From Acidisoma silvae (lineage in GTDB: Bacteria; Pseudomonadota; Alphaproteobacteria; Acetobacterales; Acetobacteraceae), in assembly GCF_020618775.1 (NCBI RefSeq), contig NZ_JAESVB010000002.1:62001-126000 (forward strand): a DNA stretch of 64,000 nucleotides, written 5' to 3'. Position numbers and translations under genes: made by a program. The notes under the pieces are model-generated. The model was not told where the DNA came from and did not search any database. It saw nothing but the letters and a program-made list of their open reading frames with translations. Positions 9,364 to 26,236 of the stretch are shown here, one piece after another. Within the stretch, counting starts at the first letter, position 1. Each line of letters starts with the position of its first letter.

Positions 9364-9387
9364 TGGCGGCCCCTTATTGTGCAGACA

Positions 9388-9413
9388 AAGGGCTGGGCGC
9401 CCGCCCAGCCCTT
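9388..9413 (-). terminator. Intercistronic hairpin between binding-protein and ATPase genes
   Basis: Perfect inverted repeat with 11-bp arms AAGGGCTGGGC and GCCCAGCCCTT around a GCCC loop. No T-run follows on the minus strand, so full termination is unlikely. In many binding-protein operons such hairpins stabilise the binding-protein mRNA or partly block transcription of the membrane genes, which gives an excess of binding protein. That role is inferred. Confidence 0.55.
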
Positions 9414-9422
9414 CGCCTTGTC

Positions 9423-10770: not shown

Positions 10771-11940
10771 ATGACGGCCCATGATTATCTGCCCCAGGAC
10801 CTCGACCAGGCGACCCTGATCGGCCGGGTCTTCGATCCCGCTGTGGGCGGCCCCTGCATCGTGCATCTGCGCGGCGATCATTTGGCCGATATCACGGCCG
10901 CCGGCCCCACTGTCTCAGCCCTGCTGGAACGCGACGACCTGCTGAGCGCGGTGCGCGACGTGCCCGCCGCCCGCAGCTTTGCGCTGGCCGAGGTCATCGA
11001 GAATAGCCTGTCCGGACAGCAGGACGCCCCCCACCTGCTCGCGCCCTGCGACCTTCAGGCCGTGAAGGCCTGCGGCGTCACCTTCGCCCGCTCCATGCTG
11101 GAACGCGTGATCGAGGAGCGCGCGCGGGGGGATTTTCGGGCCGCCGCCACCATTCGCGCCCAGATCGGCAATGCCATCGGCGGACAATTGCGCGATCTCA
11201 AGCCCGGGTCCGAAGCAGCCGCACAGGCGAAAGCCATGCTGATGGAAGCCGGCTACTGGTCGCAATATCTGGAAGTCGGCATCGGGCCGGATGCGGAGGT
11301 CTTCACCAAGGCCCCGGTTCTGGCGTCCGTCGGGCTGGGCGCCCAGATCGGCATTCTCAAAAAATCGAGCTGGAACAACCCGGAGCCGGAAGCTGTGCTG
11401 GCGGTCAACAGCCGTGGCCTTATTCTGGGCGCGACTTTGGGCAATGACGTCAATCTGCGCGACATCGAAGGGCGCAGCGCGCTGCTGCTGGGCAAGGCGA
11501 AGGACAATAACGCCTCTTCCGCCATCGGCCCCTTCATCCGCCTCTTCGACGAGCATTTCTCGCTCGATGACGTGCGGAAGTGGGAGATTGCCCTACGGGT
11601 GACCGGTGCCGAAGACGGCTATGTGCTGGACGGGGCGAGTTCCATGAGCGAGATCAGCCGCGATCCGGAGGAATTGGTGGCCCATGCGACGGGGCCGCAT
11701 CACCAATATCCGGACGGGTTCATGCTGTTTCTGGGCACGCTCTTCGCGCCGATCCAGGATCGCGACACGCCGGGCCAGGGTTTCACCCATAAGACCGGCG
11801 ATCAGGTGGCAATCGCGACCCCGCAATTGGGGAGACTGGTCAACACCGTCACCTATGCCGAGGAGGCCGCCCCTTGGACTTTCGGCATCGGCGCCCTGAT
11901 GCGCAATCTGGGCGCGCGCGGCCTGCTCGGCGGGACTTAG
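10771..11940 (+). CDS. Fumarylacetoacetate hydrolase-superfamily protein
   Basis: 389 residues. The C-terminal half carries the FAH fold: a metal-site region (PEPEAVLAVNSRGLILGATL, GNDVNLRDIEG) followed by LGKAKDNNASSAIGPFIRL and a long C-terminal part. The N-terminal 100 residues are a separate cap-like region, as in FAH-type dehydratases of 2-keto-3-deoxy sugar acids. Enzymes of this superfamily cleave or dehydrate 2-oxo acids with a divalent metal. The gene is divergent from an RbsABC-type importer, so a role in sugar-acid breakdown is a reasonable inference. An acylpyruvase or another FAH reaction is possible. A strong ribosome site precedes the ATG. Confidence 0.8.
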   Translation: MTAHDYLPQDLDQATLIGRVFDPAVGGPCIVHLRGDHLADITAAGPTVSALLERDDLLSAVRDVPAARSFALAEVIENSLSGQQDAPHLLAPCDLQAVKACGVTFARSMLERVIEERARGDFRAAATIRAQIGNAIGGQLRDLKPGSEAAAQAKAMLMEAGYWSQYLEVGIGPDAEVFTKAPVLASVGLGAQIGILKKSSWNNPEPEAVLAVNSRGLILGATLGNDVNLRDIEGRSALLLGKAKDNNASSAIGPFIRLFDEHFSLDDVRKWEIALRVTGAEDGYVLDGASSMSEISRDPEELVAHATGPHHQYPDGFMLFLGTLFAPIQDRDTPGQGFTHKTGDQVAIATPQLGRLVNTVTYAEEAAPWTFGIGALMRNLGARGLLGGT

Positions 11941-11969
11941 GGGCTTTTCAGGTTTTCACTGAAATGACG

Positions 11970-12977
11970 TCATTCCCGCGAAGGCGGGAATGTGGATTCT
12001 CGTTTGAAGTGCAACACCCTGGAGAAGACCTCAGCTGGGGTTAGGAAGTCCAGGCATTGTCTGGGTGTATGGTTATAGGTGCGTGCGATGGCGCAGATCT
12101 GTTCCTGAGTGAGGCCGAGGAGGTCTGTTTTTCTGGGTAGGAAGCGGCGGATGCGACCGATGGCGTTCTCAACGCCGCCCTTCTGCCAGGGGGCGTGGGG
12201 ATCGCAGAAGTAGGTATCGAGGCCGATGCGATAATGCTCGGCGAATTCAGTGCCGTTGTCGAAGGTCAGGGATTGCTTGAGGCTTGGCGGCAGCGGGCTG
12301 AGCAGGCCTTTAAGGGTCTTGGCGGTAGGCGAGGCTTTGCGGGTTTTCGTTTTGACCAGGGCGGTCAGGCGGGAGGTTCGCTCATGCAGGACGAGGACCG
12401 ACTGACCATAGGTCGAGAACAGCATGAAGTCGGCTTCCCAGTGTCCGGGCTGGAGCCGGGGCAAGGCGTCGGCGGGGCGCTGCGACAGTGCCACGCGGTG
12501 TTGGATAAAGCTTGCCGGTGATCCGCCGCGGCGCCCGCGACGGCCGCGCTTGGCGCGGGCTTGGGGCAGGTAATGGCGCCAGGCGCGGTCGTTGGTGCGC
12601 TTCAACTGGGCGTAGATGAAGCGATAGATGCTCTCATGGCCGATGACCGCCTGACCTTGCTCTTGTTTCAGCCGGCCTGACACCTGCTCGGGCGACCACC
12701 CTTTGGCGAGGGCCGCCAGCACCTGCTCGCGCAGGGCCGTATCACGCTCCAAGCGGCTGCCCGACCAGCGCCGGGCCGAGGTCTGGTCCTGAGCATGGCC
12801 GGGCTTGTAGATCTGGGCTTTCAGCCCCGAACCGGTGTTGCGCTTCAGTTCGCGACAGATGCTGGATGGCGCGCGATCCAAAGCTGCAGCAACTTGCCGG
12901 ATCGACGCGCCCGAGGCGCGTAAGCGGGCAATCTCACACCGCTCTTCGACGCCAAGCTGATCGTAGTGCCGTCCCAT
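11970..12977 (-). CDS. IS30-family transposase
   Basis: 335 residues. The N-terminal helix-turn-helix GVEERCEIARLRASGASIRQ starts near residue 9. The DDE catalytic region includes PGHWEADFML (first D), SLTFDNGTEF (second D) and PWQKGGVENAIGRIRRFLP (E). GGAGGTG lies upstream of the ATG at 12977. The reading frame runs past the left end of the element: the last six residues (FPPSRE) and the TGA come from the REP-like hairpin next to the insertion. The native element may therefore have no stop codon of its own. The fold is complete, so the enzyme may still be active. Confidence 0.93.
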   Translation of the reverse strand: MGRHYDQLGVEERCEIARLRASGASIRQVAAALDRAPSSICRELKRNTGSGLKAQIYKPGHAQDQTSARRWSGSRLERDTALREQVLAALAKGWSPEQVSGRLKQEQGQAVIGHESIYRFIYAQLKRTNDRAWRHYLPQARAKRGRRGRRGGSPASFIQHRVALSQRPADALPRLQPGHWEADFMLFSTYGQSVLVLHERTSRLTALVKTKTRKASPTAKTLKGLLSPLPPSLKQSLTFDNGTEFAEHYRIGLDTYFCDPHAPWQKGGVENAIGRIRRFLPRKTDLLGLTQEQICAIARTYNHTPRQCLDFLTPAEVFSRVLHFKRESTFPPSRE

Positions 12978-13025
12978 ACCAACACCTCCGCCAATGCAGG
13001 GTGTTGCACTTCGTGTGAGAACTCA
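11992..13025 (-). mobile_element. IS30-family insertion sequence, about 1034 bp
   Basis: The ends are imperfect inverted repeats of about 29 bp. They share TTCTC and then an identical 16-bp block, GAAGTGCAACACCCTG, at 12006-12021 and (reverse) 12997-13012. The flanks show a possible 6-bp target duplication, GGGAAT, at 11986-11991 and 13026-13031. IS30 elements usually duplicate 2-3 bp, so part of the match may belong to the target palindrome. The target is the REP-like repeat, in keeping with the known IS30 preference for symmetrical targets. The element contains a single intact transposase gene. Confidence 0.85.
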
Positions 13026-13137
13026 GGGAATCCTCTCCCTTCGGCACCGCGACAAAGCTTAGAAGATGCCCGCATTCGCGGGCATGACGGTTGGCGAGGC
13101 GCTTCAATCCAAAACGGAAACGCTCGAAGGACGGCGG

Positions 13138-14613
13138 TCATCCCGGCGGGCTGAGCCATTGGAACAGCCCGTTCTTGGACAAAGGCTCGAACAATTCCGC
13201 CGGGCCTTCGGGGTCCAGAACCTCGTTATCCGCAAGCCAGGTCTCGACGGCATCCAAATCCGGAATCTCGTAGGGCCGAAGTGAGCGGCCCGGTCCGCGC
13301 AGCTGCTCGATCGCGGCGATCAGCGATCCGCGCGCCTCATAGACTTCGCTGAATTCCTGGGGCGATATCCCGAGATGCTCGGCCAGAAGCCCGTTTCTGA
13401 TGGAGGCGGCCGCCGCCGCGACCCCGGCATCCGGATTCCGTTCCGCATCGATACAGACATCGCATTCGGTATCCAGACGCATCGAGCGGTTATTGATATT
13501 GGCCGAGCCGATGCGGATCATCCGATCATCGATGATGGTGATCTTGGCATGGACATAGATGGGGTCACCGCCGGATGTATAGGGATGATAAACGGCCAGG
13601 CGCCCGCCCGCATCATGCTTGCGCAACGCTGCGATAAGCCGTGCACGCGCGCTGTCCATGGCAAGGGGCTGCAACCAGCCTTCGGCGGTCTCGGGGTTGA
13701 TGACGACGATCTCAGGCCCATCGGCCTCCTGAAGCCGCTGGCCGATGGCTTCGGCAATCCGCCGTGAGGCGAAATACTGGCTTTCAAGATAGATGACCCG
13801 TCGCGCCGCCGCGATCTGGTCAATGAACAGCTGCTCGATTTCCAGAACGGGCGTCTGGTCGCTCATTTCAGGATGCGACCGCGCCACCGCGACATCGACG
13901 CCGTGAAGCAGGGGCGCCAGACCCTCCGGCCAAAGTGGATCGGCGCTGTCGATCGCAGGCAGTTTTTCAGCCGTCGCTCGCTCCCAACGGTCCCGGCATT
14001 CCTGGGAGATGACGGCCGCGACCGGACCGGACAAAGCCGTGCTGGCATCGTGCCAGGGCTTATAGGGCTTGCCACCGGGCTGCACGCGCCGGGGGTCCTG
14101 GTGGATATGCGCGCGGGTGTCCCAGCGGTCAGCCGTCATGTCGATACCGCCGCAGAAAGCGAGGCAATCGTCGATGGAGACCATCTTCTGATGATGGGAC
14201 GATGCGGTGGGATGATGACCGTCCAGCTTGACATGAATACGGGGATGAACGGCCCATTTGACCGCCGTAATGGCGGTCGTCGGCTGAAACAGGCTTTTGA
14301 GCGCACCGGTATCCCAGCGCAGAAGATAGACTTCCAGGTCCGGGCTGCGCTCGACCAGCCAAAGCAGAAACTCGCCGATCCTATCCGGCTCGCCCGCGAC
14401 CCGGTCATCCGTGTGGAAGCCGATCCGCGCGTCGAAATCCCAGCCCACCAGCATGACGCGCTTTGTCGCAGCCAGAAGCGCCTTGCGGAGTATCGCGAAA
14501 TACGCTTCCGCATCGATGATCACGGATAGCGTATCGGCCCGCGCAACCTGCCAGCAATTCCGCCCTTCATCGAATATGCCTTGTCCGGCCATTCCATCGC
14601 TCACTACAGGCAC
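13138..14613 (-). CDS. Phospholipase D-family protein (cardiolipin synthase-like)
   Basis: 491 residues with two HKD motifs. The first is SSHHQKMVSIDD, near residue 160. The second is HAKITIIDDRMIRIGSANIN, near 355-375. Each supplies half of the PLD active site, which moves phosphatidyl groups or hydrolyses phosphodiesters. There is no N-terminal membrane pair as in bacterial Cls, so a soluble or peripheral PLD is more likely than a true cardiolipin synthase. The listed start is GTG at 14613. An in-frame ATG at 14592 would drop seven residues. The gene is convergent with the FAH-type gene across the IS and repeat. Confidence 0.85.
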   Translation of the reverse strand: MPVVSDGMAGQGIFDEGRNCWQVARADTLSVIIDAEAYFAILRKALLAATKRVMLVGWDFDARIGFHTDDRVAGEPDRIGEFLLWLVERSPDLEVYLLRWDTGALKSLFQPTTAITAVKWAVHPRIHVKLDGHHPTASSHHQKMVSIDDCLAFCGGIDMTADRWDTRAHIHQDPRRVQPGGKPYKPWHDASTALSGPVAAVISQECRDRWERATAEKLPAIDSADPLWPEGLAPLLHGVDVAVARSHPEMSDQTPVLEIEQLFIDQIAAARRVIYLESQYFASRRIAEAIGQRLQEADGPEIVVINPETAEGWLQPLAMDSARARLIAALRKHDAGGRLAVYHPYTSGGDPIYVHAKITIIDDRMIRIGSANINNRSMRLDTECDVCIDAERNPDAGVAAAAASIRNGLLAEHLGISPQEFSEVYEARGSLIAAIEQLRGPGRSLRPYEIPDLDAVETWLADNEVLDPEGPAELFEPLSKNGLFQWLSPPG

Positions 14614-14729: not shown

Positions 14730-15161
14730 TCAGATTATTTTCTGCAACAGCGCGAAGAGCAGGCGTCCCTCGTCTTCCGTCAGCGGGGCCAGGGTTTCCT
14801 GCGTGATGCCGGCGGCGGCGGCGAGATTTCGCTCCGTCATCGCGCGGCCTTCCGGTGTCAGGTCAACCAACAGCTTGCGCCGATCATCGGCATCCGGCAG
14901 GCGCGCGACCAGGGCCCGCGCCTCCAGCCTGTCCACCGTGCCTTTGACGGTCGCGGCATCCATGCAGACCGCACGGCCGAGGGCGGATTGCGAAGTCTGG
15001 CCGATTTCATGCAGCTTTGCCAGCACCGCCCATTGCATCGGCGTCAGCCCGTCGCCGATCATCTGCGCGAAGATATTGGTATGGCGCTGCGTCACCCGCC
15101 GCAGCACAAAGCCGATCTGCTTGTCCAGGACATAGGCTTTCTCGACCGTTTCCATCGGCAT
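14730..15161 (-). CDS. MarR-family transcriptional regulator, last gene of the nicotinate operon
   Basis: About 143 residues, a normal MarR length. The winged helix spans about residues 35-100, including LTPMQWAVLAKLHEIGQTSQ and the wing VDRLEARALVARLPDADDRR. The ATG at 15161 lies just after the upstream TAA. A second ATG at 15155 is also possible, and longer readings enter the upstream gene. In Pseudomonas putida a MarR repressor, NicR, controls nicotinate genes by sensing 6-hydroxynicotinate. By position this protein is the best candidate to bind the palindromes at 22745-22776 and 30545-30564, but that is inferred. The GntR regulator at 34.5 kb is the alternative. Confidence 0.9.
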   Translation of the reverse strand: MPMETVEKAYVLDKQIGFVLRRVTQRHTNIFAQMIGDGLTPMQWAVLAKLHEIGQTSQSALGRAVCMDAATVKGTVDRLEARALVARLPDADDRRKLLVDLTPEGRAMTERNLAAAAGITQETLAPLTEDEGRLLFALLQKII

Positions 15162-15162
15162 A

Positions 15163-15747
15163 TTACCGCAACCCGTCCTGGCCGATGATATCGGCGGCGG
15201 CAAGACCACCGACGCGCGCCAGCGGCCGGCCACTATCCGTCACCACCACCGCGACCAGAATTTCATTGGCCCGCGGCGCGTCGGCGATGCTGACCTCCAT
15301 GGCGTCGAAATGGCTGCGCACATAGGCCGCGTTGCGATGGCCGAGCGGCACGTCGATCGCCGTGCCCATCGTGCCGCGTTTCTTGGCGGAGGGTACCAGC
15401 GCGGTGCCGCCGCCCAGCACGCCGCGCATCGGCGCACCCAGTTTGGGGTGCAGGATGGCAGCCGCGTGTTCGATCTCACCCGCCTCCCCCACCACGGCCG
15501 CCTTGCCGTAGCTTTCCGCCGCATCCGGCGCGATGCCGAGGGCCGCGACGGCACGCGCCGTCAGCAGCGCGCCTAATTCGGCACCGATGTCGATCAGCGG
15601 AGACAGATCGGCCGTGAAGCTGCCGGCGAAGGGGTTGGCGATGACGGCGATGGCCGCCGCGCGGCGGGTCGGCGGATTGACCGTCTCGCCCATTTCCACC
15701 AGCACCTCGTCGGTCATGGTGACGAGCTTGCGGATGGCGGCGGTCAT
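15163..15747 (-). CDS. DUF1185 (amino acid synthesis family, PF06684) protein, second paralog
   Basis: 194 residues. RRAAAIAVIANPFAG is near residues 28-42, VRSHFDAMEVSIADAPRA is near 145-162, and ARVGGLAAADIIG is at the end. These blocks also occur in the upstream neighbour, so the two are tandem paralogs. Structural work on the family describes a chorismate-mutase-like fold, but no reaction is established. The ATG overlaps the previous stop (ATGA), so the two are co-translated. In this operon it follows nicotinate dehydrogenase and 6-hydroxynicotinate reductase genes, so a role on a ring-opened or lactam intermediate is possible. The two paralogs may form a hetero-oligomer. The function is unknown. 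Confidence 0.85.
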   Translation of the reverse strand: MTAAIRKLVTMTDEVLVEMGETVNPPTRRAAAIAVIANPFAGSFTADLSPLIDIGAELGALLTARAVAALGIAPDAAESYGKAAVVGEAGEIEHAAAILHPKLGAPMRGVLGGGTALVPSAKKRGTMGTAIDVPLGHRNAAYVRSHFDAMEVSIADAPRANEILVAVVVTDSGRPLARVGGLAAADIIGQDGLR

Positions 15748-16328
15748 CGCAGACCGTCCTCGCCCTTGATGGCATCGGCCGCCAGGCCGCCGACGCGCGC
15801 ATGGATGCGCGCCCCCGTTGTCATGACAAGAACCAGCGCAAGTTCATCCGCCCGAGGGCCATCCGGCACGCCCACTTCCATGGCGTCGAAATGGCTGCGG
15901 ACATAGGCCGCGTTGATATGGGTGACAGGAATATCCAGCCGCGTGCCGGGACCGCCGACCTTCTTGGCGGAAGGCACGATGGCCTTCGCGTCGCCCAGCA
16001 CGGCCCGCATGGCATAGCCGCCCGGCACATGCCACAGCGCGCCATGTTCCAGCTCACCGGCCGCACCGACGATGGCACCCTTGCCGTAGCCCTGCACGAC
16101 GGACGGGTCACCGCCCAGCGCTGTGACCAAGCGTTCCGCCATATCCACGCCCAGCGGTTCCAGCACTTTCATGAAATAGGATATCTCTTCGACATAGCGG
16201 CCCGCAAAGGGATTGGCGATGACGCTGATGGCCGCCGCCCGGCGCAAAGGCACTGACGCCACCGGGCCGCCTTCGTGAAAAATCTCCTCGACCGTCAGCA
16301 GGCGCTTGCGCAGTTCGATATCAGCCAT
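15744..16328 (-). CDS. DUF1185 (amino acid synthesis family, PF06684) protein, first paralog
   Basis: 194 residues. The ATG at 16328 is chosen because the conserved region starts there (MADIELRKRLLTVEEIFHEG). A longer reading from 16592 lies inside the UPF0280 gene. Shared family blocks are RRAAAISVIANPFAG, IVPSAKKVGGPGTRLDIPV and VRSHFDAMEVGVPDGPRA. It overlaps the UPF0280 gene by 8 bp and the second paralog by 4 bp. It has exactly the same length as its paralog, but the sequences have clearly diverged, so the duplication is old. No catalytic residues can be named for this family. Confidence 0.85.
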   Translation of the reverse strand: MADIELRKRLLTVEEIFHEGGPVASVPLRRAAAISVIANPFAGRYVEEISYFMKVLEPLGVDMAERLVTALGGDPSVVQGYGKGAIVGAAGELEHGALWHVPGGYAMRAVLGDAKAIVPSAKKVGGPGTRLDIPVTHINAAYVRSHFDAMEVGVPDGPRADELALVLVMTTGARIHARVGGLAADAIKGEDGLR

Positions 16329-17202
16329 GGTGTCTCTCCCCCGTGACGCAGGTTTCACCCTGCAAATGTAGCGCGGCCCTTTCGATGAGGCCTTCCACAA
16401 CCAACCTATCCGCCAACGCCAGGCCCTGCGACAGCGCGCGGGCTTTTTCAGCGGGTGCCAGCGCGCCGACATCGCGAGTGACAAGGAAATCGCCAAGGTC
16501 ACTGTCAGGCTGAATTCTGTTCGCTGCCACACGCTGCACGGCCGGGTGGTCCGGCAGATCGACGGCATTGGCGATGACGGTCGCCGCCGCATCGGCCTGT
16601 GCTGCCGTCTTCGCCAGCACTGTCACGGCATCCGCGATGCCGCGCGAAAAGCTGCGGCCGCGCCAGCCGCTGGTGGCCAAGCCGCGCGCAGGGTTATCAC
16701 TCGTCAGCGTGAAACGGCCGAAAAGGTCGATGCCGCCCAGTTCCGGCTTCGCCACCATGCCGATGGCGATGGACTGACCGGAGCCAAGGTGGATCGCGAT
16801 ATCGCCACCGTTATTGACGGCCGCACGGTCAAGCGCGGCTGCTTCCAGCATGGCCGCCAGCATCGTCTCAGCCACTGCCCCGGCGACGGCCACCATGGGC
16901 GTGATGAAGCCCCAGCTGGCCAGCGGCCGCACCGCCGCGCGCATCAGCGTCGCGACGGCGCCGTCTGGCCAGGGCGTCTCGGCCGTCACGCCCTGCCGCA
17001 GCAAAGGCAATTCGGCGCAGAGCTCATCCAGCACCGTCGCGAACCGCGCCTCTGCCGCCCGATAGGCCTGTTCCACGGCGGTGGCACTGCCTTCGGCCAT
17101 GATGACGAGGTCGATCGGCCCGTCCTGCAGATGCAGGCGCGGCAGGCCATCGGCCGCCGTCGGCGGCAAGAGACGGGCGACCGCGCGCCCAGCGATCATC
17201 AA
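16321..17202 (-). CDS. UPF0280 family protein (ApbE-like superfamily)
   Basis: 293 residues, typical of UPF0280. Recognisable segments are SWGFITPMVAVAGAVAETML (about 96-115) and NNGGDIAIHLGSGQSIAIGM (about 130-150), the latter corresponding to the glycine-rich NNGGDI block. The family belongs to the ApbE-like superfamily. ApbE itself transfers FMN covalently to Thr or Ser of partner proteins. The gene overlaps the hnr stop (ATGA). Hnr of Eubacterium barkeri is reported to carry covalent flavin, so this protein may be a dedicated flavin transferase for the neighbouring Hnr. That link is inference. A role in ring cleavage is an alternative. Confidence 0.85.
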   Translation of the reverse strand: MMIAGRAVARLLPPTAADGLPRLHLQDGPIDLVIMAEGSATAVEQAYRAAEARFATVLDELCAELPLLRQGVTAETPWPDGAVATLMRAAVRPLASWGFITPMVAVAGAVAETMLAAMLEAAALDRAAVNNGGDIAIHLGSGQSIAIGMVAKPELGGIDLFGRFTLTSDNPARGLATSGWRGRSFSRGIADAVTVLAKTAAQADAAATVIANAVDLPDHPAVQRVAANRIQPDSDLGDFLVTRDVGALAPAEKARALSQGLALADRLVVEGLIERAALHLQGETCVTGERHHG

Positions 17203-18656
17203 TGCTTCGTCATCGGCAGCAAAGGCCAGGGATTGTCCGGCAATTGCTCCACGAGCACATGCGGTGTTGCCGCATCAAGCTCAGTCGCCCGCTTCACGTG
17301 ATCCATATAGCCGCCCATGGCCTGGTAATCGGCCAGCGGCATGGTGAATTCGATGGGCGCGACCAAGGCGGGTGTCGGCACATAGCCGAAGGCATTGTCC
17401 GGCAGCTTCAGCACATCGACCATGAAAGTGATGCCGCCGCCGGGCCAGAGATAGACCGGCGCGCCGCCGCAGGTGAGCCGGGTTATGCTGCGCCCGACCG
17501 ATTGCGTAAGGCGCACGGGATTGTCCGTCACACCGGCGCGCAGAGACCCGCCGGCACCGCCGATGAACAGCACGCTGCACAAAGCGGGTTCGCAATTCTC
17601 GGCGATACGCTCGACAGACTCCTGCAAGTCAGGCGGCATGTCATGCTGCACCGGCCGCAGGTCATCGTCCAGCACGTAATAGCCGTAATGCTCACCCGTT
17701 GTGCTGACCATCAGCATGCGAATGCCCGGCCGCGCATGCTTGGCATCGAAAGGATCGAGAATGGAGAGCGGATCGGAAATATCCGTCCCGCCCCAGCCTG
17801 TGCCGGGATGCGCCACCTGGAAATAGCGGCCAGGGGTGGAGCGGCGGCCGCGCATGCGAATGCCGGTGGGCGCAACACCCAAAAGCTTGCCGCCCTGATG
17901 CTCGGACAAGACACCGGTGATATGATCGTCAACCACGACGACCTCATCCACCTTACCCAGCCATTGCGGCGCGAAAATACCGATGGTGGCAGAGCCGCAG
18001 CCGACGCGCATGCGCGTCTCCATCACGTCATTGACGATCGGTGCCTTGCCGGCCTGCACGATGACGGTGGCGCCATCATCAATGGTGAGTTCCACGGCCT
18101 GCTTATTGGACAACGCCAGCAGCGTATCGCAGGTGATGCGGCCTTCCTTCTTGCCGCCGCCCGTCAGATGGCCGACACCGCCCAGCGACAGCATCTGCGA
18201 CCCGTATTCGCCGGTCGTGACATGGCCGACAGGCTCACCCTTAGCGCGGACGATGGCCCGCTCATTGCCCAGATGCCGGTCGGTATCGACTTTGATCTTG
18301 ACGCCGCAATAGCTGAACACGCCTTCCGTTACCACCGTCACCATATCGACGCCATCGACAGGCGTGGAGACGATGAAGGGCGCGGGCTTGTAATCGGGAT
18401 AGGTTGTGCCGGCGCCGATGGCGGTGACGAAGGTATCCGCCCCGCGCACCAGACGGCCGTCCCAATCCTCGGCCGATTGATGCGTGACCATGGGCCTGCC
18501 TTGGGCCGCCGCCATTTCCAGCAGCACCAGCGGATCGACGCGCACCAGAAGCCCATCCGCATTGGCGTAGCGGTCACAGGCGCCGGCAAGACCCGGGCGG
18601 ATATTGCACATGACGGGGCAGGCGTCGCAGCGAATGGTGGCGGCAGGATCTGTCAT
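17199..18656 (-). CDS. hnr: 6-hydroxynicotinate reductase-like iron-sulfur protein
   Basis: 485 residues. The N-terminus has four cysteines in the pattern CDACPVMC and then GACDRY (about residues 10-27), suited to an iron-sulfur cluster. The body matches Hnr: VVTEGVFSYCGVKIKVDTD, GHVTTGEYGSQMLSLGGVGH and TRMRVGCGSATIGIFAPQWL, with RLTCGGAPVYLWPGGGITF near the C-terminus. Hnr reduces 6-hydroxynicotinate to 6-oxo-1,4,5,6-tetrahydronicotinate with ferredoxin in E. barkeri. A related activity is known biochemically in Azorhizobium. I see no ApbE-type flavinylation motif (D-x-x-S/T-G-A-T/S). The closest stretch is GCGSATIG. It lies 14 bp after nicB. The family assignment is good; the substrate is inferred from nicAB. 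Confidence 0.85.
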   Translation of the reverse strand: MTDPAATIRCDACPVMCNIRPGLAGACDRYANADGLLVRVDPLVLLEMAAAQGRPMVTHQSAEDWDGRLVRGADTFVTAIGAGTTYPDYKPAPFIVSTPVDGVDMVTVVTEGVFSYCGVKIKVDTDRHLGNERAIVRAKGEPVGHVTTGEYGSQMLSLGGVGHLTGGGKKEGRITCDTLLALSNKQAVELTIDDGATVIVQAGKAPIVNDVMETRMRVGCGSATIGIFAPQWLGKVDEVVVVDDHITGVLSEHQGGKLLGVAPTGIRMRGRRSTPGRYFQVAHPGTGWGGTDISDPLSILDPFDAKHARPGIRMLMVSTTGEHYGYYVLDDDLRPVQHDMPPDLQESVERIAENCEPALCSVLFIGGAGGSLRAGVTDNPVRLTQSVGRSITRLTCGGAPVYLWPGGGITFMVDVLKLPDNAFGYVPTPALVAPIEFTMPLADYQAMGGYMDHVKRATELDAATPHVLVEQLPDNPWPLLPMTKH

Positions 18657-18670
18657 TTTTCTTGCTCCCG

Positions 18671-21600
18671 CTATTGGCTGATATGGGTTGAGGTTTCGCG
18701 CAGTCGGGAAATTGTCTTGTCGAGATCAGCCCATTCCGGCCGGCCCGGCGCATATTGGCGGCGCAGGAAGCGCACCAGATCGGCAATCTGGCTGTCTGAC
18801 AGAACCGGCCCGAAGGCCGGCATCGATCCCAGATCGGCGATAGCCGGTTTCGGCACACCGCGCAGAATGGTGCGGATGAGATTATCCGGTCTGTCGCTAT
18901 GCAGATTGCTGTTGAAGGCGAGATTGGGCTTCACGCCGAAGAGCGGCGGCGCGGTCGGTGCGTGGCAGACGGCGCAGGCCCCCTGAAAGATGCGGCCGCC
19001 CGGCCCGGCCGAGGGCAATAGCGCCGTTGCATTCCGCGCATCCGCTGTTGCTATCGCGGCTTTTTCCGCTTCAGGGGTGACGGGCGGCAGGTCGCTCGCC
19101 AGATAATGCGCCATGGCGCGCAGGTCTTCGTCCGGCAGGGCCTGCAATTCATGAATGACCGGCGCCATCGGCCCTGCCGCCGGCCCATGCAAAGGCGAAA
19201 AGCCGGTGCGGAGATAGGTGAAAAGCTCCCCCTCGCTCCAGGGGATCGGCGCGCGCGACAAGGTGGAGAGCGCCGGCGCTTCCCACCCTTCCGCCACACC
19301 GCCAGCATAGCGCTGGCTGGCGAGCTCGGCCCCCAGGGCGTTGCGCGGCGTATGGCAACTGCTGCAATGGCCCAGACCCTCCACCAGATAGGCGCCGCGA
19401 TTCCAGATCTCCGACCGCGCTGTGTCAGGCTGAAAGGCGCCGGTCTTGAGATAGAGCGCGTTCCAGCCTGCCATCAGCGGCCGCATATTCATCGGGAAAG
19501 CGAGCTTGTTCGCGGACGTGGCAGAACCAACCGGCGTCTGCGCCATCAGATAGGCGTATATCGCTTCAAGATCGGCATCGGTCGTCTTGGTGAAATGGTC
19601 ATAGGGAAAGACGGGATAGAGATGCCGCCCGTCCCGCCCGATGCCTTCGCGCATGGCACGACGGAAGGCATCGAAAGACCAGGCGCCGATGCCGGTCTTC
19701 ACGTCCGGTGTCAGATTGGTGCTGAAGACCGTGCCGAAGGGCGTTTCCAGGCCGAGACCGCCGGCCATGGGCTGCCCGCCTTCGGCCGTATGGCAGACGG
19801 CGCAATCGCCCAAAGCCGCCAGGGTTTTGCCCTTCGCGATGGTCGAAGCCGAATAGAGTGTCGGGTCAATCCCGCTGATCGGCGCGATGGCCGAGCGGAT
19901 AGGCAGCGCCAGCGTGCCGATACCGACCAAACCGGCGAGGCCGATGCCGAGCCCGGCCCAGAAGCCGCGCGGCTTCGCGGGCTTTGCTGGTGCGGCGAGT
20001 GCCGCAGGCGGCTTTGCCTGCGCAACACCGGCCGCTTGCAGCCCCGCCAGCACGCGTTCCGGCGTGAAGGGCAATTCGCGAAAGCGCACGCCGGTCGCGT
20101 CATAAATGGCATTGGCGATGGCGGCGGCACTGGGGACAGAGGCCGATTCCCCCACGCCCAGCGGCGGCTCTTCGGGCTTGTCCATCATCAGCACGTCGAT
20201 AGGCGGAATTTCGGGGAAGGTGATCATGGGGTAGCCGCCCCATTCCTTCGTCTCCACCGCAATCTGGTTGAAGGTCACTTCCTCCTTCAGCACGCGGCTG
20301 ATGGACTGGATGACATTGCCGTGGATCTGATGCTGCACCCCGGCCGGGTTGATCATCAGCCCCGAATCCTGCCCGACCGTGATCTTTGTCAGGGCAACAT
20401 CGCCGGTCGCCGTGTTGACCTCAACATCGGCGACCCAGGCGGACCACGCCGCCGGCACGCCGGGAAACTGGCCATGGACATAGACGGCATAGGCAAAGCC
20501 CCGCCCGCGCAGAATGTCGCCCTCGCCGCCCAGCGTTCCGGGCGCGGTATGCGGCACCCAATCGACACGATCGGCCATGGCGCGCACGAGATCGACGGCG
20601 CGCGGATCCTCAAGATAGCGCAGGCGGTAGGCGATGGGGTCCACGCCGGCCGCCGCCGCCGCTTCGTCGATCCAGCTTTCATGCGCGAAGGAATTCGGCA
20701 TGGAGGAGACGCCGCGCAGCCAGGAGGCGCGAACGATGGGCGCCATGTCATGCGCCGTCGCGCGCAGAGCGCCATAGCTATAGGGCGGAATGGCCGTGCG
20801 GTCGCCCATGGTGAAAACCATGGGCACGGGCGGCACCACGCCGGTCAGCAGGGAGGCCAGAAGCGGCGCACCATTGGACGGGTAGCGGACAGAAAAGTCG
20901 TAGGATGCAACGTCACCTGTTGCATCCAGCCCGCCGCGCACCTCCATCAATTGCGCGGTGCCTTTCGGCTCCCAGGCCGTCTCCTGTTCGCGCGTCAATT
21001 GCACGCGCACCGGGCGGCCGACCGCGCGGGACAGCAGGGCCGCATCGCCGCCGACATCATCCGCACAGTTGCGGCCATAGCAGCCGGCGGCCTGAAGGCG
21101 GATGATTTCGATCCGGGCTTCCGGCATGGCCATCAGCTTGGCCAGATCGGCGCGCAGCATATGGGGGTTCTGGGTGCCAGACCACAGCGTCAGCCTGTCC
21201 GGCTGACAATCCGCGACCGAACAGGACGGCCCGATGGACCCGTGCAGGTGATAGGGCCAGACATAGGTGCGGTCCATCGGCTGGGCCACGCCCGCGCGCG
21301 TGACCTCGACATCGCCGCGATGAACCAGTTCGCGCGGGGTGCTGGGGTTTTCCCGCAAGGCGGTCGGGATATCTGTCAGGTCGCGCAGATGCGGAATGGG
21401 CTTCCAGGTCACGCGCAGGCGCTCGGCCGCACGGGCCGCCTGCTCCTCCCGCTCCGCCACGATGCCGATGAAATCGCCGATGACGACGACGGCGACGATA
21501 CCGGGCAGATCGGCGATGGATGACTGGTCGACATCGATGAGGCTTGTGCCGACGAAATCCCCCACATCGACACCGGCATAGGGCGGGCGCACCACGCGGC

Positions 21601-22216
21601 CATGCAGCATATCCGGCACGCGGACGTCATGAACATAGACCAGCCCGCCGGTCGCCTTGGCCGGCAGATCGACCCGCGCGGCCTTCTGGCCGACGACGCG
21701 GTATTCGGAAACGGGCTTGAGGGGCGCCGCCATATCGATGCGCAGGACAATCCGTTCCTGCCCGATCAGTTCGCCATAGGTCACGGTGCGCGCGCCTGCG
21801 GTGACGACGCCATCGGTGACGGTGAGATCGCCTGCCGCGATATCCAGCCGCTCGGCCGCGCGGGCCAGCAGCACGGCGCGTGCGGTCGCCGCTGCCCGCG
21901 CCAAAGGCTTGGCGCTGACCTGGATGGTTTCAGAGGCGATGGTCGGCCCTTGATTGGGCGTGCGCTCGGTATCGCCCAGCACCACCGTCACGCGCGGAAA
22001 GGCGACGTCCAATTCCTCGGCCACGATCTGGCCCAACGCGGTGCCGATGCCGGTGCCGAGATCGACATGGCCGTTAAAGGCCGTGACGCGGCCATCGGCA
22101 CTGACGATGACAAAGATTTCCACATCATCCGCGCCAGTCGCATTCGCCTTGTCGCGCACCACCACAAGCTGGCTGCCCGCCGCCAGATAGTCCGCCGTGC
22201 TGCGCTTCTCGGTCAT
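18671..22216 (-). CDS. nicB: Nicotinate dehydrogenase-type large subunit: molybdopterin domain fused to tri-heme cytochrome c
   Basis: 1181 residues, close to the roughly 1190 of P. putida NicB. Residues about 1-735 are a xanthine-dehydrogenase-like molybdopterin domain (FNGHVDLGTGIGTALGQIVA, AGCYGRNCADDVGGDAALLS, PLGVGESASVPSAAAIANAI). A hydrophobic segment (WAGLGIGLAGLVGIGTLALP) follows at about 750-770. Three c-type heme sites come next: CAVCH (about 803), CSSCH (about 950) and CAVCH (about 1079). The molybdenum part should face the cytoplasm and the hemes the periplasm, passing electrons to the respiratory chain. It hydroxylates nicotinate to 6-hydroxynicotinate if it is a true NicB. Related dehydrogenases act on isoquinoline or aldehydes. 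It overlaps nicA (ATGA). Confidence 0.85.
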   Translation of the reverse strand: MTEKRSTADYLAAGSQLVVVRDKANATGADDVEIFVIVSADGRVTAFNGHVDLGTGIGTALGQIVAEELDVAFPRVTVVLGDTERTPNQGPTIASETIQVSAKPLARAAATARAVLLARAAERLDIAAGDLTVTDGVVTAGARTVTYGELIGQERIVLRIDMAAPLKPVSEYRVVGQKAARVDLPAKATGGLVYVHDVRVPDMLHGRVVRPPYAGVDVGDFVGTSLIDVDQSSIADLPGIVAVVVIGDFIGIVAEREEQAARAAERLRVTWKPIPHLRDLTDIPTALRENPSTPRELVHRGDVEVTRAGVAQPMDRTYVWPYHLHGSIGPSCSVADCQPDRLTLWSGTQNPHMLRADLAKLMAMPEARIEIIRLQAAGCYGRNCADDVGGDAALLSRAVGRPVRVQLTREQETAWEPKGTAQLMEVRGGLDATGDVASYDFSVRYPSNGAPLLASLLTGVVPPVPMVFTMGDRTAIPPYSYGALRATAHDMAPIVRASWLRGVSSMPNSFAHESWIDEAAAAAGVDPIAYRLRYLEDPRAVDLVRAMADRVDWVPHTAPGTLGGEGDILRGRGFAYAVYVHGQFPGVPAAWSAWVADVEVNTATGDVALTKITVGQDSGLMINPAGVQHQIHGNVIQSISRVLKEEVTFNQIAVETKEWGGYPMITFPEIPPIDVLMMDKPEEPPLGVGESASVPSAAAIANAIYDATGVRFRELPFTPERVLAGLQAAGVAQAKPPAALAAPAKPAKPRGFWAGLGIGLAGLVGIGTLALPIRSAIAPISGIDPTLYSASTIAKGKTLAALGDCAVCHTAEGGQPMAGGLGLETPFGTVFSTNLTPDVKTGIGAWSFDAFRRAMREGIGRDGRHLYPVFPYDHFTKTTDADLEAIYAYLMAQTPVGSATSANKLAFPMNMRPLMAGWNALYLKTGAFQPDTARSEIWNRGAYLVEGLGHCSSCHTPRNALGAELASQRYAGGVAEGWEAPALSTLSRAPIPWSEGELFTYLRTGFSPLHGPAAGPMAPVIHELQALPDEDLRAMAHYLASDLPPVTPEAEKAAIATADARNATALLPSAGPGGRIFQGACAVCHAPTAPPLFGVKPNLAFNSNLHSDRPDNLIRTILRGVPKPAIADLGSMPAFGPVLSDSQIADLVRFLRRQYAPGRPEWADLDKTISRLRETSTHISQ

Positions 22217-22683
22217 CGCTGCGCGGTCATCTGCACGGCGCGTTTTGCCGCACGGAGGATTTCGACATGGGCGCCGCAGCGACAGAGATTATAGCGCAGG
22301 GCCTCGGTAATCGCATTGTCGCTCGGCTGGCTGTCGCGCGCCAATAGAGCTGCCACCGTCATGATCATGCCATTGAGGCAATAGCCGCATTGGGCGCCTT
22401 CCTCGGCAATGAAGGCCGCCTGCACGGGATGCGGGTTCTCTGCGGTGCCGAGACCTTCCAGCGTGGTGATCTCTCGCCCCTCCACCAGCCCCACGGGCAG
22501 GCAGCAGGCGCGGGCCGCGACGCCATCGACCAGCACGGTGCAGGCGCCGCATTCGCCCAGGCCGCAGCCGTATTTGGGACCGTTGAGGCCGAAATCATTG
22601 CGCAGGATGAAGAGCAGCGGCGTGTCATCGGCCAGCACCAGCACCTGCTCGCTACCATTGACGCAGAGCGTCACCGGCCGCAT
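22213..22683 (-). CDS. nicA: Nicotinate dehydrogenase-type small [2Fe-2S] subunit
   Basis: 156 residues, like NicA (157). The plant-type [2Fe-2S] motif CGLGECGACTVL lies near residues 40-51. The second cluster is formed by CGYC and CRCG (about 98-101 and 135-138). This subunit passes electrons from the molybdenum centre to the cytochrome part of NicB. It is first in an operon of seven closely spaced genes. A -35 TTGACA and a palindrome overlapping the presumed -10 lie 60-115 bp upstream. Isoquinoline 1-oxidoreductase alpha subunits are equally similar by motif, but the hnr neighbour favours nicotinate. Confidence 0.87.
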   Translation of the reverse strand: MRPVTLCVNGSEQVLVLADDTPLLFILRNDFGLNGPKYGCGLGECGACTVLVDGVAARACCLPVGLVEGREITTLEGLGTAENPHPVQAAFIAEEGAQCGYCLNGMIMTVAALLARDSQPSDNAITEALRYNLCRCGAHVEILRAAKRAVQMTAQR

Positions 22684-22744
22684 GGGCGATGATCTCCGCT
22701 AGGCCGCGATCCTGTCCCGCTGCTCCGCCGCATGGCCTCGCTTA

Positions 22745-22776
22745 CCCATGATCGTTTGTATGCAAAGGATCATGGG
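22745..22776. promoter_or_regulatory. 32-bp near-perfect palindromic operator upstream of nicA
   Basis: The outer 9-bp arms (CCCATGATC and GATCATGGG) are perfect complements, and the inner arms (GTTTG and CAAAG) have one mismatch around TATG. The 20-bp core ATCGTTTGTATGCAAAGGAT (22751-22770) recurs at 30545-30564 before the fused hydantoinase gene with 18 identities. It overlaps the proposed -10 of the nicA promoter, so it should act as a repressor site. The regulator is probably the operon's MarR protein or the GntR protein at 34.5 kb. Confidence 0.75.
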
Positions 22777-22798
22777 TCGGCTCTTCTGCCGCTGTCAA
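22769..22798 (-). promoter_or_regulatory. Probable nicA operon promoter
   Basis: A perfect -35 TTGACA (22798-22793) and a -10 CATGAT (22774-22769, four of six consensus bases) are separated by 18 bp. The -10 lies inside the palindrome. The expected transcription start is near 22762, about 80 bp before the nicA ATG. Found by eye. Confidence 0.5.
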
Positions 22799-22849: not shown

Positions 22850-25800
22850 CTATGGTGACCCGAGCCCCCGCTCGCGGCGCCCCGATGGCGCCGCCGTCGC
22901 ATGGCCTGCCCCTTGGTTGGCGGCAAGCCTGGCCCGCAGCCGCTCGACCTGCGGGCCAGCGATGACGAGTGGCGCATAGCCAAGAGCCGCCCAGCGCAAT
23001 TGCGCATCGAGCTCGGGCGGGGAGAAGCGCGGATGCGCCTCTATCACGCCGCCACCATTGACAAAGGCAGCCCGCTGGCCGGTTTCGAGATAGGTTTCCG
23101 TCGGCAGCCCTTCCGCGAAGATGACGTCATGGGTGGCCAATTCTATGTGGTAATAGGTCACGCGCGGCTGGTTCAACTGCGCGACGCTGTCGCCGTTGAT
23201 CAGGTATTTCACCGGGATCAGCACGCCCTCCATAAACAGCGCGTGGTCAGGCGACAGGAGCAGGTCGCGGGCCGGCTGCTGCGGCCCGAAGGCATGGGCC
23301 AGGATGCGCACCGGCAGGACGCTTGCGGGGTCCGGATGGCGGCTGCAATCCAGGCTGCGATGGCCGATCCAACGCACTGTCTCCTGCCGGCCGCCGACCA
23401 CTGTGACGCTGTCGCCCGCAGCCATTGTCTCCACCGCGCGATCGCCCGCGGGCGTGCGGATGCGCGTGCCCTCAGCGAAGCAGGCAATGGCCTTGATACC
23501 CATGATACCGTCGGCGAGGTCGAACATGATGCTCTCGCCGTAATAGGCGCCGATGCCGGTATTGACGGCGCCGGGATTGGTCGCGTCGGCAGCAGTGGCC
23601 ACGCCAACCTCGTTGACGCCGGCGATCGTGCCCGCGCCCTGGATCGACAAAGTCCAGCCGATGTCCGAACCGACGCCGGTTGATGACAATACAACATTAA
23701 TCCCATCGCTAAGCCTTTCTCCGGTTTTTGTTGCGGTTTCCAGGCTGCCGTCTACGGTCAGCGTTGTGCCGGTGAAGATCGTCGTATGGGTGGCACCCGT
23801 ATCGAAGATGAAGCTCGTCGGGACAGAGGTGCCGTTCACTGAGATTGTGCCGGTGGCTTGCGATTTCCCATAGGTGGCATAGCCGGAATTCGCGAAAGTA
23901 TCGGCAAGGTTCCGCCCGTTCAGGGCGATGATCGTGTCATAGGATTCGATATCGGCTTCCGTCAGCCCCACCTGTAGCGTGCCGACCTGACCGAGCGCAC
24001 CATCCGGGTTATTGCCGATGGTGATGACGAAACCGTTGGAAAGCCCATTGCCGAGCTGGCCGAGCACGGCCTCTATGCCGTTATTGTCATTCAGCCCGAG
24101 ACCGAAATCGCCATAGAAGTAATCTTCGAGAGGCGCCGTCGTCGGGTCGCTGGTCAGCGACGTGTTCCAATTCTGCGTCGAGAAGTTGCCTTGGTCTGCC
24201 GCGTTGGTGATCAATCCGACATTGACGTTGCTGACGGTGAGCGGTGTTCCGCCAGTGGTCTGCAGCGTGACGGCGGTATTGACGACCTGCGCCACGTAGT
24301 CATTGCCGCTGACATAGGTCATCGCATCGGGCGCCGTGCCGACCGCCGTGTAGGACGACCACCAGTCCGGCGTATAAGCGGCGAAGAAGCCGGACGCGCC
24401 GGTATCGAGTTCGACCATCTTATAGGTCTGGCCACCGTCGAAGCTGACCTCGATGCCAAGCTTATAGGAATCGTTGTAGGGCAGCACATAGATCGGGATA
24501 TCGACCGGGGCCTGCGTTGTCGGCGTGACCGTGCCGCTGGTTGCCTGCACGAGCGTTACGGCGATGCCGCCTGCGGGCGAGGCAGTCGCCGAAAACGTGT
24601 CCCCGGCATAGGCCGAACCGAGATTGATCGCGGTGCTGGTGCTGCTGCTGCTGCCGTTGGTGCTGCTGGTAACGCTGGTGACGGTGAGCAGGCCGCTCGG
24701 GTCGATCGTCGCACTGAGCGTCCCAGTACCGCTCGGCTGGATGGTTTCAATGTCAATGGTGTCGCCGGCGGCAAAGCCGTTTACGACGGTGCTTGCGGAC
24801 AGGCCGTCATAAAGCGTCAAAGTGCCATCAGTGCCGCTGAAGGTGATGCTGCCGCTGGCCGCGCCGCCCGCCGCGATGATGAGCGCGCCGCCCGCGCCGA
24901 TGATGTCATCATAGGCAACGCCGCCGCTGGCCACACGGTCGACCGCGTTCAGGCCAATGACGGTTCCGCTCTCGGTGCCGCCGCCATAGACGAAGCCCGT
25001 GGCGCCGCTTTGCAGCGTCAAGCCAGCCGAGGCGGTGTAGAGAAAGGCACTCGTGCCACCGTTGATCACCACATGACCACCCGTGATAAGCTGGCCCGCG
25101 CCGATGCCGTCCGTGGTTGATGTAACAAGCAATGTTCCCGGCAATGCGATGACCGTGCCGCCGGCCTCGATTGTCGGGTCGATGATGGTGCCGCCGTCTG
25201 CCACCAGGACAGCGCCGGACTCGATAATAAGGTCGCTCTCCGTGCCACCGAAGGCGATGATCTCGCCCCCTGCGGCAATCGTCACATCCTCCGCCGTCGC
25301 CCCCGACAGAATGGCGAAGCCGCTGACGCTGCCGCCACGGATTGTGCCGTAAACATAGGCGGCGCCGCCCGCGTCGATCACCGTGTCGAAGGCACTGCCG
25401 ACATAGGCCGTCCCGACATTGACGATGTAAAGGGCACCGCCATTCTCCACCTCGGTGTTCGACACGACACCATAAACGGCCTGAATGCCGCCGCTTCCGA
25501 CCTTGGTATCGCGCGCGATGCCAGCCGAATCGACAATCGAATAGCCGTTCAGCACCGTCGTGGATATCGCGGTGCCGGAACTGAAGACGTATTGGACGCC
25601 GCCATTTTCCAAAACAGAGCCGATTGCCACCGCGCCCGCATTGACGACCTGGATGCTGCTGTCGACCGTCACATCCTGAGCCTGGCCGCCCGTGAAAATC
25701 TCCTCGCTCGCGCCCGGCAGCAGCGTGCCGCCGCTGGCGACGCCATCGGTGAGCACCAGAACCTGCGCGCCACTTGCGACGGTCTGGCCCACGGCCAGGC

Positions 25801-26236
25801 TGCCCACGCTGCCGTCGGCGTCAATGACGACGGCACCGGTACTGATCGCCGAACCGGCCGTAACGGTCGCCGCGCCGCCGGGTTCGATAATGGCATAGCC
25901 ACCGCTCGCGACCGAAAGGGCAGAGACCGTGCTGCCACTCTGTGCGATAAGGAGACCGGCCAAGACGGTGGTGCTGATTGCTGTGCCGCCGGCTGAGACC
26001 AGTTCGAAACCGCCACTGCTCACGACCGTGCCGCTCGCGATACCGCCCGATGAAATCGCTTGAAAGCCGCCGCCTGTGACGGTGGCGTCGAGATCGACAC
26101 CGAAAAGCTGTTCACTGCCGCCGCTGATAAGCGCCGAAAGGGCTGTACCACCCGAGTCCACCACCAGCACGTCACCCGCACGTATCGTCGCAGGGGTCAC
26201 AGCGGTGGTGCCGCTACTGATGGTGATGATCGTCAT
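22850..26236 (-). CDS. Large secreted protein: AIDA-like repeats, pepsin-like two-DTG region, C-terminal Hint domain
   Basis: 1128 residues. Residues about 1-480 are glycine-rich repeats of roughly 20 residues (SSGGFELVSAGGTAISTTVL, DVTIAAGGEIIAFGGTESDL), like AIDA-type beta-helix repeats of autotransporter passengers. The middle (about 575-900) has two aspartic-protease motifs, LDTGASGFF (about 610) and IFDTGATHT (about 810). FGLGL follows the first, and YYGESIMFDLADGIMG closes the region. This pattern suggests a two-lobed pepsin-like fold. A Hint domain begins with CFAEGTRIRT (about 916) and has LLLSPDHALFMEG. No classical signal peptide or autotransporter barrel is present, so export may be by a type I system. 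Hint proteins are common in Acetobacteraceae. The function is unknown. Confidence 0.85.
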   Translation of the reverse strand: MTIITISSGTTAVTPATIRAGDVLVVDSGGTALSALISGGSEQLFGVDLDATVTGGGFQAISSGGIASGTVVSSGGFELVSAGGTAISTTVLAGLLIAQSGSTVSALSVASGGYAIIEPGGAATVTAGSAISTGAVVIDADGSVGSLAVGQTVASGAQVLVLTDGVASGGTLLPGASEEIFTGGQAQDVTVDSSIQVVNAGAVAIGSVLENGGVQYVFSSGTAISTTVLNGYSIVDSAGIARDTKVGSGGIQAVYGVVSNTEVENGGALYIVNVGTAYVGSAFDTVIDAGGAAYVYGTIRGGSVSGFAILSGATAEDVTIAAGGEIIAFGGTESDLIIESGAVLVADGGTIIDPTIEAGGTVIALPGTLLVTSTTDGIGAGQLITGGHVVINGGTSAFLYTASAGLTLQSGATGFVYGGGTESGTVIGLNAVDRVASGGVAYDDIIGAGGALIIAAGGAASGSITFSGTDGTLTLYDGLSASTVVNGFAAGDTIDIETIQPSGTGTLSATIDPSGLLTVTSVTSSTNGSSSSTSTAINLGSAYAGDTFSATASPAGGIAVTLVQATSGTVTPTTQAPVDIPIYVLPYNDSYKLGIEVSFDGGQTYKMVELDTGASGFFAAYTPDWWSSYTAVGTAPDAMTYVSGNDYVAQVVNTAVTLQTTGGTPLTVSNVNVGLITNAADQGNFSTQNWNTSLTSDPTTAPLEDYFYGDFGLGLNDNNGIEAVLGQLGNGLSNGFVITIGNNPDGALGQVGTLQVGLTEADIESYDTIIALNGRNLADTFANSGYATYGKSQATGTISVNGTSVPTSFIFDTGATHTTIFTGTTLTVDGSLETATKTGERLSDGINVVLSSTGVGSDIGWTLSIQGAGTIAGVNEVGVATAADATNPGAVNTGIGAYYGESIMFDLADGIMGIKAIACFAEGTRIRTPAGDRAVETMAAGDSVTVVGGRQETVRWIGHRSLDCSRHPDPASVLPVRILAHAFGPQQPARDLLLSPDHALFMEGVLIPVKYLINGDSVAQLNQPRVTYYHIELATHDVIFAEGLPTETYLETGQRAAFVNGGGVIEAHPRFSPPELDAQLRWAALGYAPLVIAGPQVERLRARLAANQGAGHATAAPSGRRERGLGSP

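Follow-up and report, generated by a model that had tools for sequence, protein, structure and literature searches.

The stretch analysed here, a 64 kilobase (kb) piece of DNA referred to as the window, belongs to contig C2 in the 5.44 megabase genome (assembly 98.9% complete) of an Acidisoma-like, presumably aerobic alphaproteobacterium. At 14730-22683 it carries seven minus-strand genes in the order nicA, nicB, hnr, UPF0280, AA_synth, AA_synth, marR. Nicotinate operons of this kind have been reported from soil bacteria before; the variation is an apparently swapped ring opener, for which the nearby gene hyuAB is the probable candidate. nicA and nicB overlap by 4 nucleotides (nt), a gap of 14 nt separates nicB from hnr, and the remaining genes abut or overlap. 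A preliminary description of this DNA had placed seven overlapping or nearly abutting genes here, with three hemes in NicB, and the coordinates, Pfam and NCBIfam domains and CxxCH motifs bore this out. It had also given the span as 14730-22776; the genes are all within it, but the first codon of the operon is at 22683, and the rest, up to 22776, is an upstream region with a palindromic operator-like site. In the nearest named relative found, Acidisoma cellulosilyticum, Hnr is 93% identical and the gene order is kept. The features are as follows.

22213 to 22683, minus strand: NicA-like [2Fe-2S] subunit of nicotinate dehydrogenase (Pfam Fer2 and Fer2_2; 88% identical in A. cellulosilyticum, locus L011)
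18671 to 22216, minus strand: NicB-like molybdopterin and three-heme cytochrome c subunit, 1181 amino acids (MoCoBD and cytochrome c domains)
17199 to 18656, minus strand: Hnr-like 6-hydroxynicotinate reductase, 485 amino acids (60-80% identical to the proteins of 26 plasmid records, of which 17 carry the annotation of this enzyme)
16321 to 17202, minus strand: UPF0280 protein, a remote ApbE relative, with its start at TTG 17202 or ATG 17199 (NF003322, 367.7 bits, cut-off 290)
15744 to 16328, minus strand: AA_synth (DUF1185) protein 1, 194 amino acids (PF06684, 234.6 bits)
15163 to 15747, minus strand: AA_synth (DUF1185) protein 2, 194 amino acids (PF06684, 239.8 bits)
14730 to 15161, minus strand, start 15161: MarR-family regulator, a proposed NicR-like repressor (PF01047, E 5.3e-14, scanned without the first nine residues)
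22755 to 22766, no strand: palindromic operator-like site TTTGCATACAAA upstream of nicA (palindrome search)
30548 to 30559, no strand: second operator-like site TTCGCATACAAA, with one mismatch, lying 16 nt ahead of the start codon ATG of hyuAB (palindrome search)
30576 to 34343, plus strand: fused HyuA-HyuB hydantoinase/oxoprolinase-type protein, 1255 amino acids from ATG 30576 (Hydantoinase_A and Hydantoinase_B domains)

We consider it likely that the operon and hyuAB together encode a single inducible pathway of reductive nicotinate breakdown, with HyuAB standing in place of the enamidase. In this pathway NicAB would hydroxylate nicotinate at C6 and pass the electrons via its hemes to the respiratory chain, and Hnr would reduce 6-hydroxynicotinate to 1,4,5,6-tetrahydro-6-oxonicotinate. 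HyuAB, as a lactamase dependent on adenosine triphosphate (ATP), would then open the six-membered lactam instead of the usual enamidase, giving an aminomethylene-glutarate, which would lose ammonia to yield 2-formylglutarate. What the sequence itself establishes is the gene content and linkage, the common operator-like sites, the phylogenetic profiles and the lack of a match to the enamidase-type gene; the reactions are predictions.

NicB has three CxxCH motifs, at residues 805, 951 and 1081, and by its Pfam domains NicAB is a molybdenum hydroxylase, such as the reductive, Hnr-type pathway uses for C6. It looks like the nicotinate type, the activity itself being a prediction. NicB-like proteins are common, with 1052 plasmid records at E <= 1e-5, and some Hnr clusters (26 of the 80 kept contigs described below, none of which also has NicAB) have a xanthine-dehydrogenase-type large subunit, as might be expected if the substrate of NicAB and Hnr were another pyridine carboxylate or N-heterocycle of that sort. 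Sixty of the NicB-like records were listed, and three non-Hnr plasmid loci among them (L109-L111) were opened; their NicB proteins are 58-61% identical to that of the window. All three have nic-pathway genes alongside, for a flavin adenine dinucleotide (FAD) monooxygenase, an alpha/beta hydrolase, and Asp/Glu racemase-type and N-carbamoylsarcosine amidohydrolase-type proteins, and two of the three have an annotated 2,5-dihydroxypyridine 5,6-dioxygenase. Moreover, strain SG-6C, which bears an Hnr cluster, grows on nicotinate and 6-hydroxynicotinate, as stated in passages of Shettigar 2012 (PMC3511419). A substrate other than nicotinate thus seems quite improbable to us.

The window protein was recognized as a 6-hydroxynicotinate reductase homologue through its plasmid matches rather than by direct comparison with the protein of Eubacterium barkeri. 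Seven cysteines (Cys10, 13, 17, 27, 176, 220 and 355) are invariant in 37 Hnr sequences. An AlphaFold model of Hnr (mean predicted local distance difference test score 70) had no PDB match at E <= 0.001, and sequence searches gave no convincing relative among solved structures either. The route from nicotinate through 6-hydroxynicotinate to the tetrahydro lactam, already put forward in the preliminary description, is likely for these first two steps; ring opening had been left unexplained there, and the linked hyuAB at 30576-34343 had been overlooked.

Hnr clusters in aerobes are already published, and the pairing of NicAB with Hnr is not new. A scan of species genomes with Hnr gave at least 588 stretches confirmed as relatives. 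In the best 80 contigs, which were kept and some of whose stretches are cut by contig ends, NicA and NicB (each at 50% identity or more) stand beside Hnr in 45, and 32 of these 45 are titled Bradyrhizobium. This count rules out the idea of a rare NicAB-Hnr hybrid, and neither it nor the published conserved clusters (PMC3511419) support the earlier view that joining the two is unusual. The co-occurrence of the seven genes, for which a genome search had been proposed, varies from gene to gene: besides NicAB in 45, the retrieved stretches of the 80 contigs hold UPF0280 in 77, at least one AA_synth in 72 and a MarR homologue in 53.

According to passages of Shettigar 2012 (PMC3511419), a cluster that combines Hnr with the genes of the first three steps is conserved in Azorhizobium (A. 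caulinodans ORS571), Bradyrhizobium (B. japonicum USDA110), Rhodopseudomonas (R. palustris HaA2) and strain SG-6C. As in the window, Hnr and first-step genes are conserved there together with unknown genes, and reduction in these aerobes proceeds via the tetrahydro lactam, the route predicted here. The four clusters differ in that they are said to hold the first three steps and an ATP-binding cassette (ABC) transporter, whereas the window is proposed to work with hyuAB instead; those passages contain no statement as to whether the dehydrogenase of the cluster is of the NicAB type. Within the window, we found no match to the transporter proteins tried, nor to the amidohydrolase. The nicotinate fermentation cluster of E. 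barkeri shares the Hnr step with the window. Its dehydrogenase is reportedly selenium-dependent and of the NADP type, and its enamidase reportedly depends on a metal; in their place the window has NicAB and HyuAB. The first three genes of the E. barkeri cluster are said to be present in nine Proteobacteria.

The nic pathway of Pseudomonas putida consists of NicAB, NicC, NicX and others, with a MarR regulator. The NicAB-type dehydrogenase and the MarR regulator are common to that pathway and the window, but the window operon has Hnr in the place of NicC. Because NicX had no match in the own genome at E <= 1e-3, while both control plasmids match, the oxidative nic route is probably absent; distant NicX matches were present in the A. 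cellulosilyticum genome (46%) and in a Bradyrhizobium genome (36%). The lack of NicC noted earlier holds within the operon, the genome having been searched for NicX only.

An enamidase of the amidohydrolase family, which belongs to the reductive pathway, was not found in the own genome: there was no match at E <= 1e-3 with one query, a protein common in Hnr clusters whose enamidase function is presumed and which was not compared with the E. barkeri enzyme, and a loosely bounded query likewise gave nothing. The earlier statement that there is no amidohydrolase enamidase therefore holds for the whole genome at this level of completeness. An ordinary enamidase-type gene elsewhere in the genome was ruled out by the same search, and 12 of the 23 amidohydrolase loci were compared directly.

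HyuAB probably opens the ring where the usual enamidase seems to be missing. HyuA/HyuB proteins include ATP-dependent lactamases. Like 5-oxoprolinase and the caprolactamase CapAB, which open lactams with ATP, HyuAB has both Hydantoinase_B (528.8 bits) and Hydantoinase_A (282 bits) domains, above cut-off, and it is predicted to act likewise. It differs from them in being fused, in scoring 472 and 304 bits against the CapA and CapB NCBIfam equivalogs (cut-off 1000) and in its predicted substrate, a tetrahydropyridone carboxylate. An oxoprolinase pair is described in part of one paper as hydrolysing delta-valerolactam, a six-membered lactam (PMC11033972). The only Hydantoinase_B match in the own genome is hyuAB itself, inside the window, and its HyuA and HyuB parts are 58% and 69% identical to a pair inside the Hnr cluster of Neorhizobium (L003).

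The distribution of the two kinds of ring opener is consistent with a replacement. We searched 51 Hnr genomes whole, namely 50 of the 80 kept loci and the own genome. The amidohydrolase was present at E <= 1e-60 in 44 of them and missing from seven: the own genome, A. cellulosilyticum, Acidisphaera and four metagenome-assembled genomes (MAGs). A HyuB homologue of any kind (E <= 1e-60) occurs in 43 of the 51, but a close one (at least 59% identity, the next best being 44%) in only five, that is, in 4 of the 7 genomes without the amidohydrolase versus 1 of the 44 with it (Fisher p 0.0007). A similar split was seen among the 26 Hnr plasmids, 16 of which carry the amidohydrolase (at least 66% identity) and the other 10 HyuB (at least 71%); 17 plasmid records have HyuB at 60% identity or more, and none is among the 16. 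This contrast covers the plasmid records and not other replicons of those strains, and since 12 of the 16 amidohydrolase plasmids are Sulfitobacter, the 26 are not independent cases. In a tree of 19 HyuB proteins, which came with a warning of long outgroup branches, the window HyuB fell in a nine-row clade (100/99) with four fetched Hnr-linked HyuBs (of ten) and the proteins of A. cellulosilyticum, Acidisphaera, Microvirga and genome G039. We found no paper tying HyuAB to nicotinate among the open-licence papers listed, judged by title and abstract opening; one of those papers, on Aspergillus (PMC6346535), contains both 6-hydroxynicotin- and oxoprolinase. As an enzyme swap in a vitamin-degrading pathway, with ATP-driven hydrolysis on one side and a metal-dependent enamidase on the other, the arrangement indicated here is a clean one.

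A shared operator-like site links hyuAB to the operon. The TTTGCATACAAA site upstream of nicA lies inside 10-bp inverted-repeat arms (22744-22753 and 22768-22777, identified by eye), and the 14-mer GCATACAAACGATC is common to the nicA and hyuAB site regions. Within one mismatch of three palindrome variants, these are the only two sites in the 64 kb; a longer pattern built from both has exactly two matches (with up to 2 mismatches), while over 100 shuffles the average number of matches was 0.02 and none reached two. In A. cellulosilyticum there is a site upstream of both nicA and hyuAB, the latter at L116:12715. When no more than one mismatch was allowed, the three variants gave 92 sites in 62 of the 88 Hnr loci (L003-L090), compared with 0-11 for 12 permuted palindromes, and a single variant gave 41 sites, compared with a mean of 1.6 and a maximum of 7 over 30 permutations. 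The 350 bp ahead of the detected cluster genes make up 14% of the bases and hold 88 of the 92 sites. Since 18 of those sites stand before the amidohydrolase gene, the kind of site that marks hyuAB here marks the enamidase-type gene in some other genomes. Among the three oxidative loci, only L111 (below) has such sites. We infer that the MarR protein would bind the shared palindrome and control both promoters.

Several observations weigh against the pathway as proposed here. hyuAB is about 8 kb from the operon, with a Hint-type protein and cysteine-pathway genes in between. Three of the seven genomes without the amidohydrolase, all MAGs, also lack a close HyuB, and the Microvirga genome has both. 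There, HyuAB stands with AA_synth genes and nucleoside hydrolases and with no Hnr within 19 kb, so that the HyuAB clade also has other uses. Both A. cellulosilyticum sites carry one mismatch each, the stretches fetched from Acidisphaera (L026, L117), Microvirga (L120), G039 (L121) and Methylobacterium (L009) showed no site, and the locus counts are not independent because many loci are close relatives. In the oxidative locus L111, on a Phyllobacterium plasmid, two exact sites (13330 and 13542) lie shortly before the gene for an ABC-transporter solute-binding protein and not beside nicAB. Finally, a NicB tree did not cleanly separate the pathways.

Both AA_synth proteins score far above the PF06684 cut-off of 27 bits, and protein 2 matches the solved structure 2QTP (SPO0826) at E 3.6e-75. 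The 2QTP structure paper describes a hexameric protein whose fold resembles that of chorismate mutase and whose gene neighbours are of the branched-chain amino-acid transporter type. Among 385 alphaproteobacterial genomes, drawn evenly from the class and including the own genome, AA_synth was found in 81, of which 59 are among the 68 genomes with Hnr, a looser link than that of UPF0280 (below). The frequency of AA_synth in the kept Hnr contigs (72 of 80), the 23 PF01979 matches in the genome, and AA_synth relatives in trigonelline and hydroxycoumarin catabolism (PMC7913881, in part) would all suit an arrangement in which HyuAB is a lactamase of some unrelated pathway, with the AA_synth pair or another of the genome's amidohydrolases opening the tetrahydro lactam. 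We think this unlikely, given that AA_synth stands beside the amidohydrolase in many clusters and so is not simply its replacement, that 9 of the 68 Hnr genomes do without it, that the whole-genome search with the enamidase-type protein was empty, and that hyuAB carries the operon's kind of site. As a sole replacement for the enamidase, AA_synth was ruled out on the first two of these grounds. The HyuA-HyuB-AA_synth-AA_synth grouping in the 19 kb Microvirga stretch, which has nucleoside hydrolases and no match to Hnr, UPF0280 or the amidohydrolase, suggests a role for the two AA_synth proteins during ring opening or directly after it.

The fourth gene, UPF0280, is presumably COG2122, and it follows Hnr closely across genomes. 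Hnr (E <= 1e-60) and UPF0280 (NF003322, E <= 1e-30) were each detected in 68 of the 385 genomes, and the two lists are identical; 65 of the 68 UPF0280 matches exceed the NF003322 family cut-off. UPF0280 comes directly after Hnr in 82 of the 88 loci. In Acidisphaera (L026) it is on another contig, L062 is a 3 kb contig without it, and of seven Hnr genomes tested, the one without it was L046, a MAG whose contig ends just after Hnr. All 26 Hnr plasmids carry UPF0280, and one further plasmid with UPF0280 keeps an Hnr remnant. That plasmid, Hydrogenophaga pBPS33-1, was rejected as an exception to the link, since a C-terminal piece of Hnr remains beside an IS1071 element. On this plasmid of Hydrogenophaga sp. 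BPS33 (L133), UPF0280 with the Hnr remnant, at 3975-5028, recurs in repeated blocks with IS1071, giving four UPF0280 places.

UPF0280 resembles ApbE/Ftp, the FAD:protein flavin mononucleotide (FMN) transferase. In an hhalign comparison with six ApbE proteins the probability was 92% (E 5e-7, score 55.8 over 126 columns), while the best score from 100 column shuffles was 26.6. The ApbE GG, TSG and D-x3-T positions are aligned, the last of which we take to be the ApbE metal site; D204, T208 and T177-G179 of UPF0280 are invariant in 34 sequences and fall on invariant columns of the six ApbE proteins. Of the 34 UPF0280 members, 16 match Pfam ApbE at E <= 0.01, the best at 2.2e-5. Since UPF0280 is a remote ApbE relative, it is probably a dedicated Hnr maturation factor, perhaps its flavin transferase. 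E. barkeri Hnr reportedly carries a covalent flavin and iron-sulfur clusters, and flavin loading is for this reason the simplest role for UPF0280, which may possibly attach the covalent flavin. The preliminary suggestion that the small genes cover maturation and control is supported as an idea.

Several differences from ApbE tell against the predicted flavin transfer. The window protein scores 17.0 bits against Pfam ApbE, below the cut-off of 25.6. The general-base histidine of ApbE sits in its HxxDP loop; in the profile alignment this invariant H and the invariant DP stand opposite a gap, and UPF0280 is without the loop. (Histidine is given as the ApbE general base in part of PMC12052999.) Inspection of Hnr by eye showed no motif of the DxxSGAT type. 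Furthermore, Desulfovibrio needs COG2122 relatives to make homocysteine and Methanosarcina needs them to use sulfide efficiently; the two papers concerned (PMC5764234, PMC12068725) propose that they handle persulfide or traffic sulfur. UPF0280 might instead supply sulfur or aid assembly of the iron-sulfur clusters of Hnr, as the seven invariant cysteines of Hnr and the missing HxxDP loop would also allow. In contrast, no cysteine is invariant among the 34 UPF0280 sequences, and the positions aligned to GG, TSG and D-x3-T are kept; on this evidence we regard a sulfur role as possible but rather doubtful.

We advance only tentatively a wider proposal in which UPF0280 would be a cytosolic, Hnr-dedicated flavin transferase, a diverged ApbE branch without the histidine loop, and HyuAB with AA_synth would form an ATP-driven module for opening reduced pyridones that has repeatedly replaced the enamidase in nicotinate catabolism. 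No paper tying UPF0280 to nicotinate was found in the literature surveyed as above. UPF0280/COG2122 and DUF1185, two families without an assigned role, gain directly testable partners here, and if UPF0280 loads the flavin of Hnr, this would bear on why methanogens and sulfate reducers need related COG2122 proteins to assimilate sulfur and make homocysteine.

Some observations concern the surroundings of these genes. The Microvirga cluster (L120, genome G022, reached via locus L052) runs at 6336-13481 from HyuA-HyuB-AA_synth-AA_synth to two nucleoside hydrolases and a sugar-type ABC transporter, and perhaps serves the catabolism of a nucleoside with an unusual base. In the window, a GntR regulator of PhnF type (34466-35182, minus strand) is the convergent neighbour of hyuAB, an adjacency kept in A. 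cellulosilyticum. Between the nicotinate operon and the cys genes lies a large repetitive protein (22850-26236, minus strand) that to the eye looks Hint-like towards the C-terminus; the distance from nicA to the cys genes is about 1 kb in A. cellulosilyticum (L011). CysD (29295-30425, minus strand) begins, within one reading frame, with a helix-turn-helix at residues 6-64 (HTH_3 and YdaS-like), to our knowledge an unusual arrangement, and this protein is 93% identical along its full length in A. cellulosilyticum.

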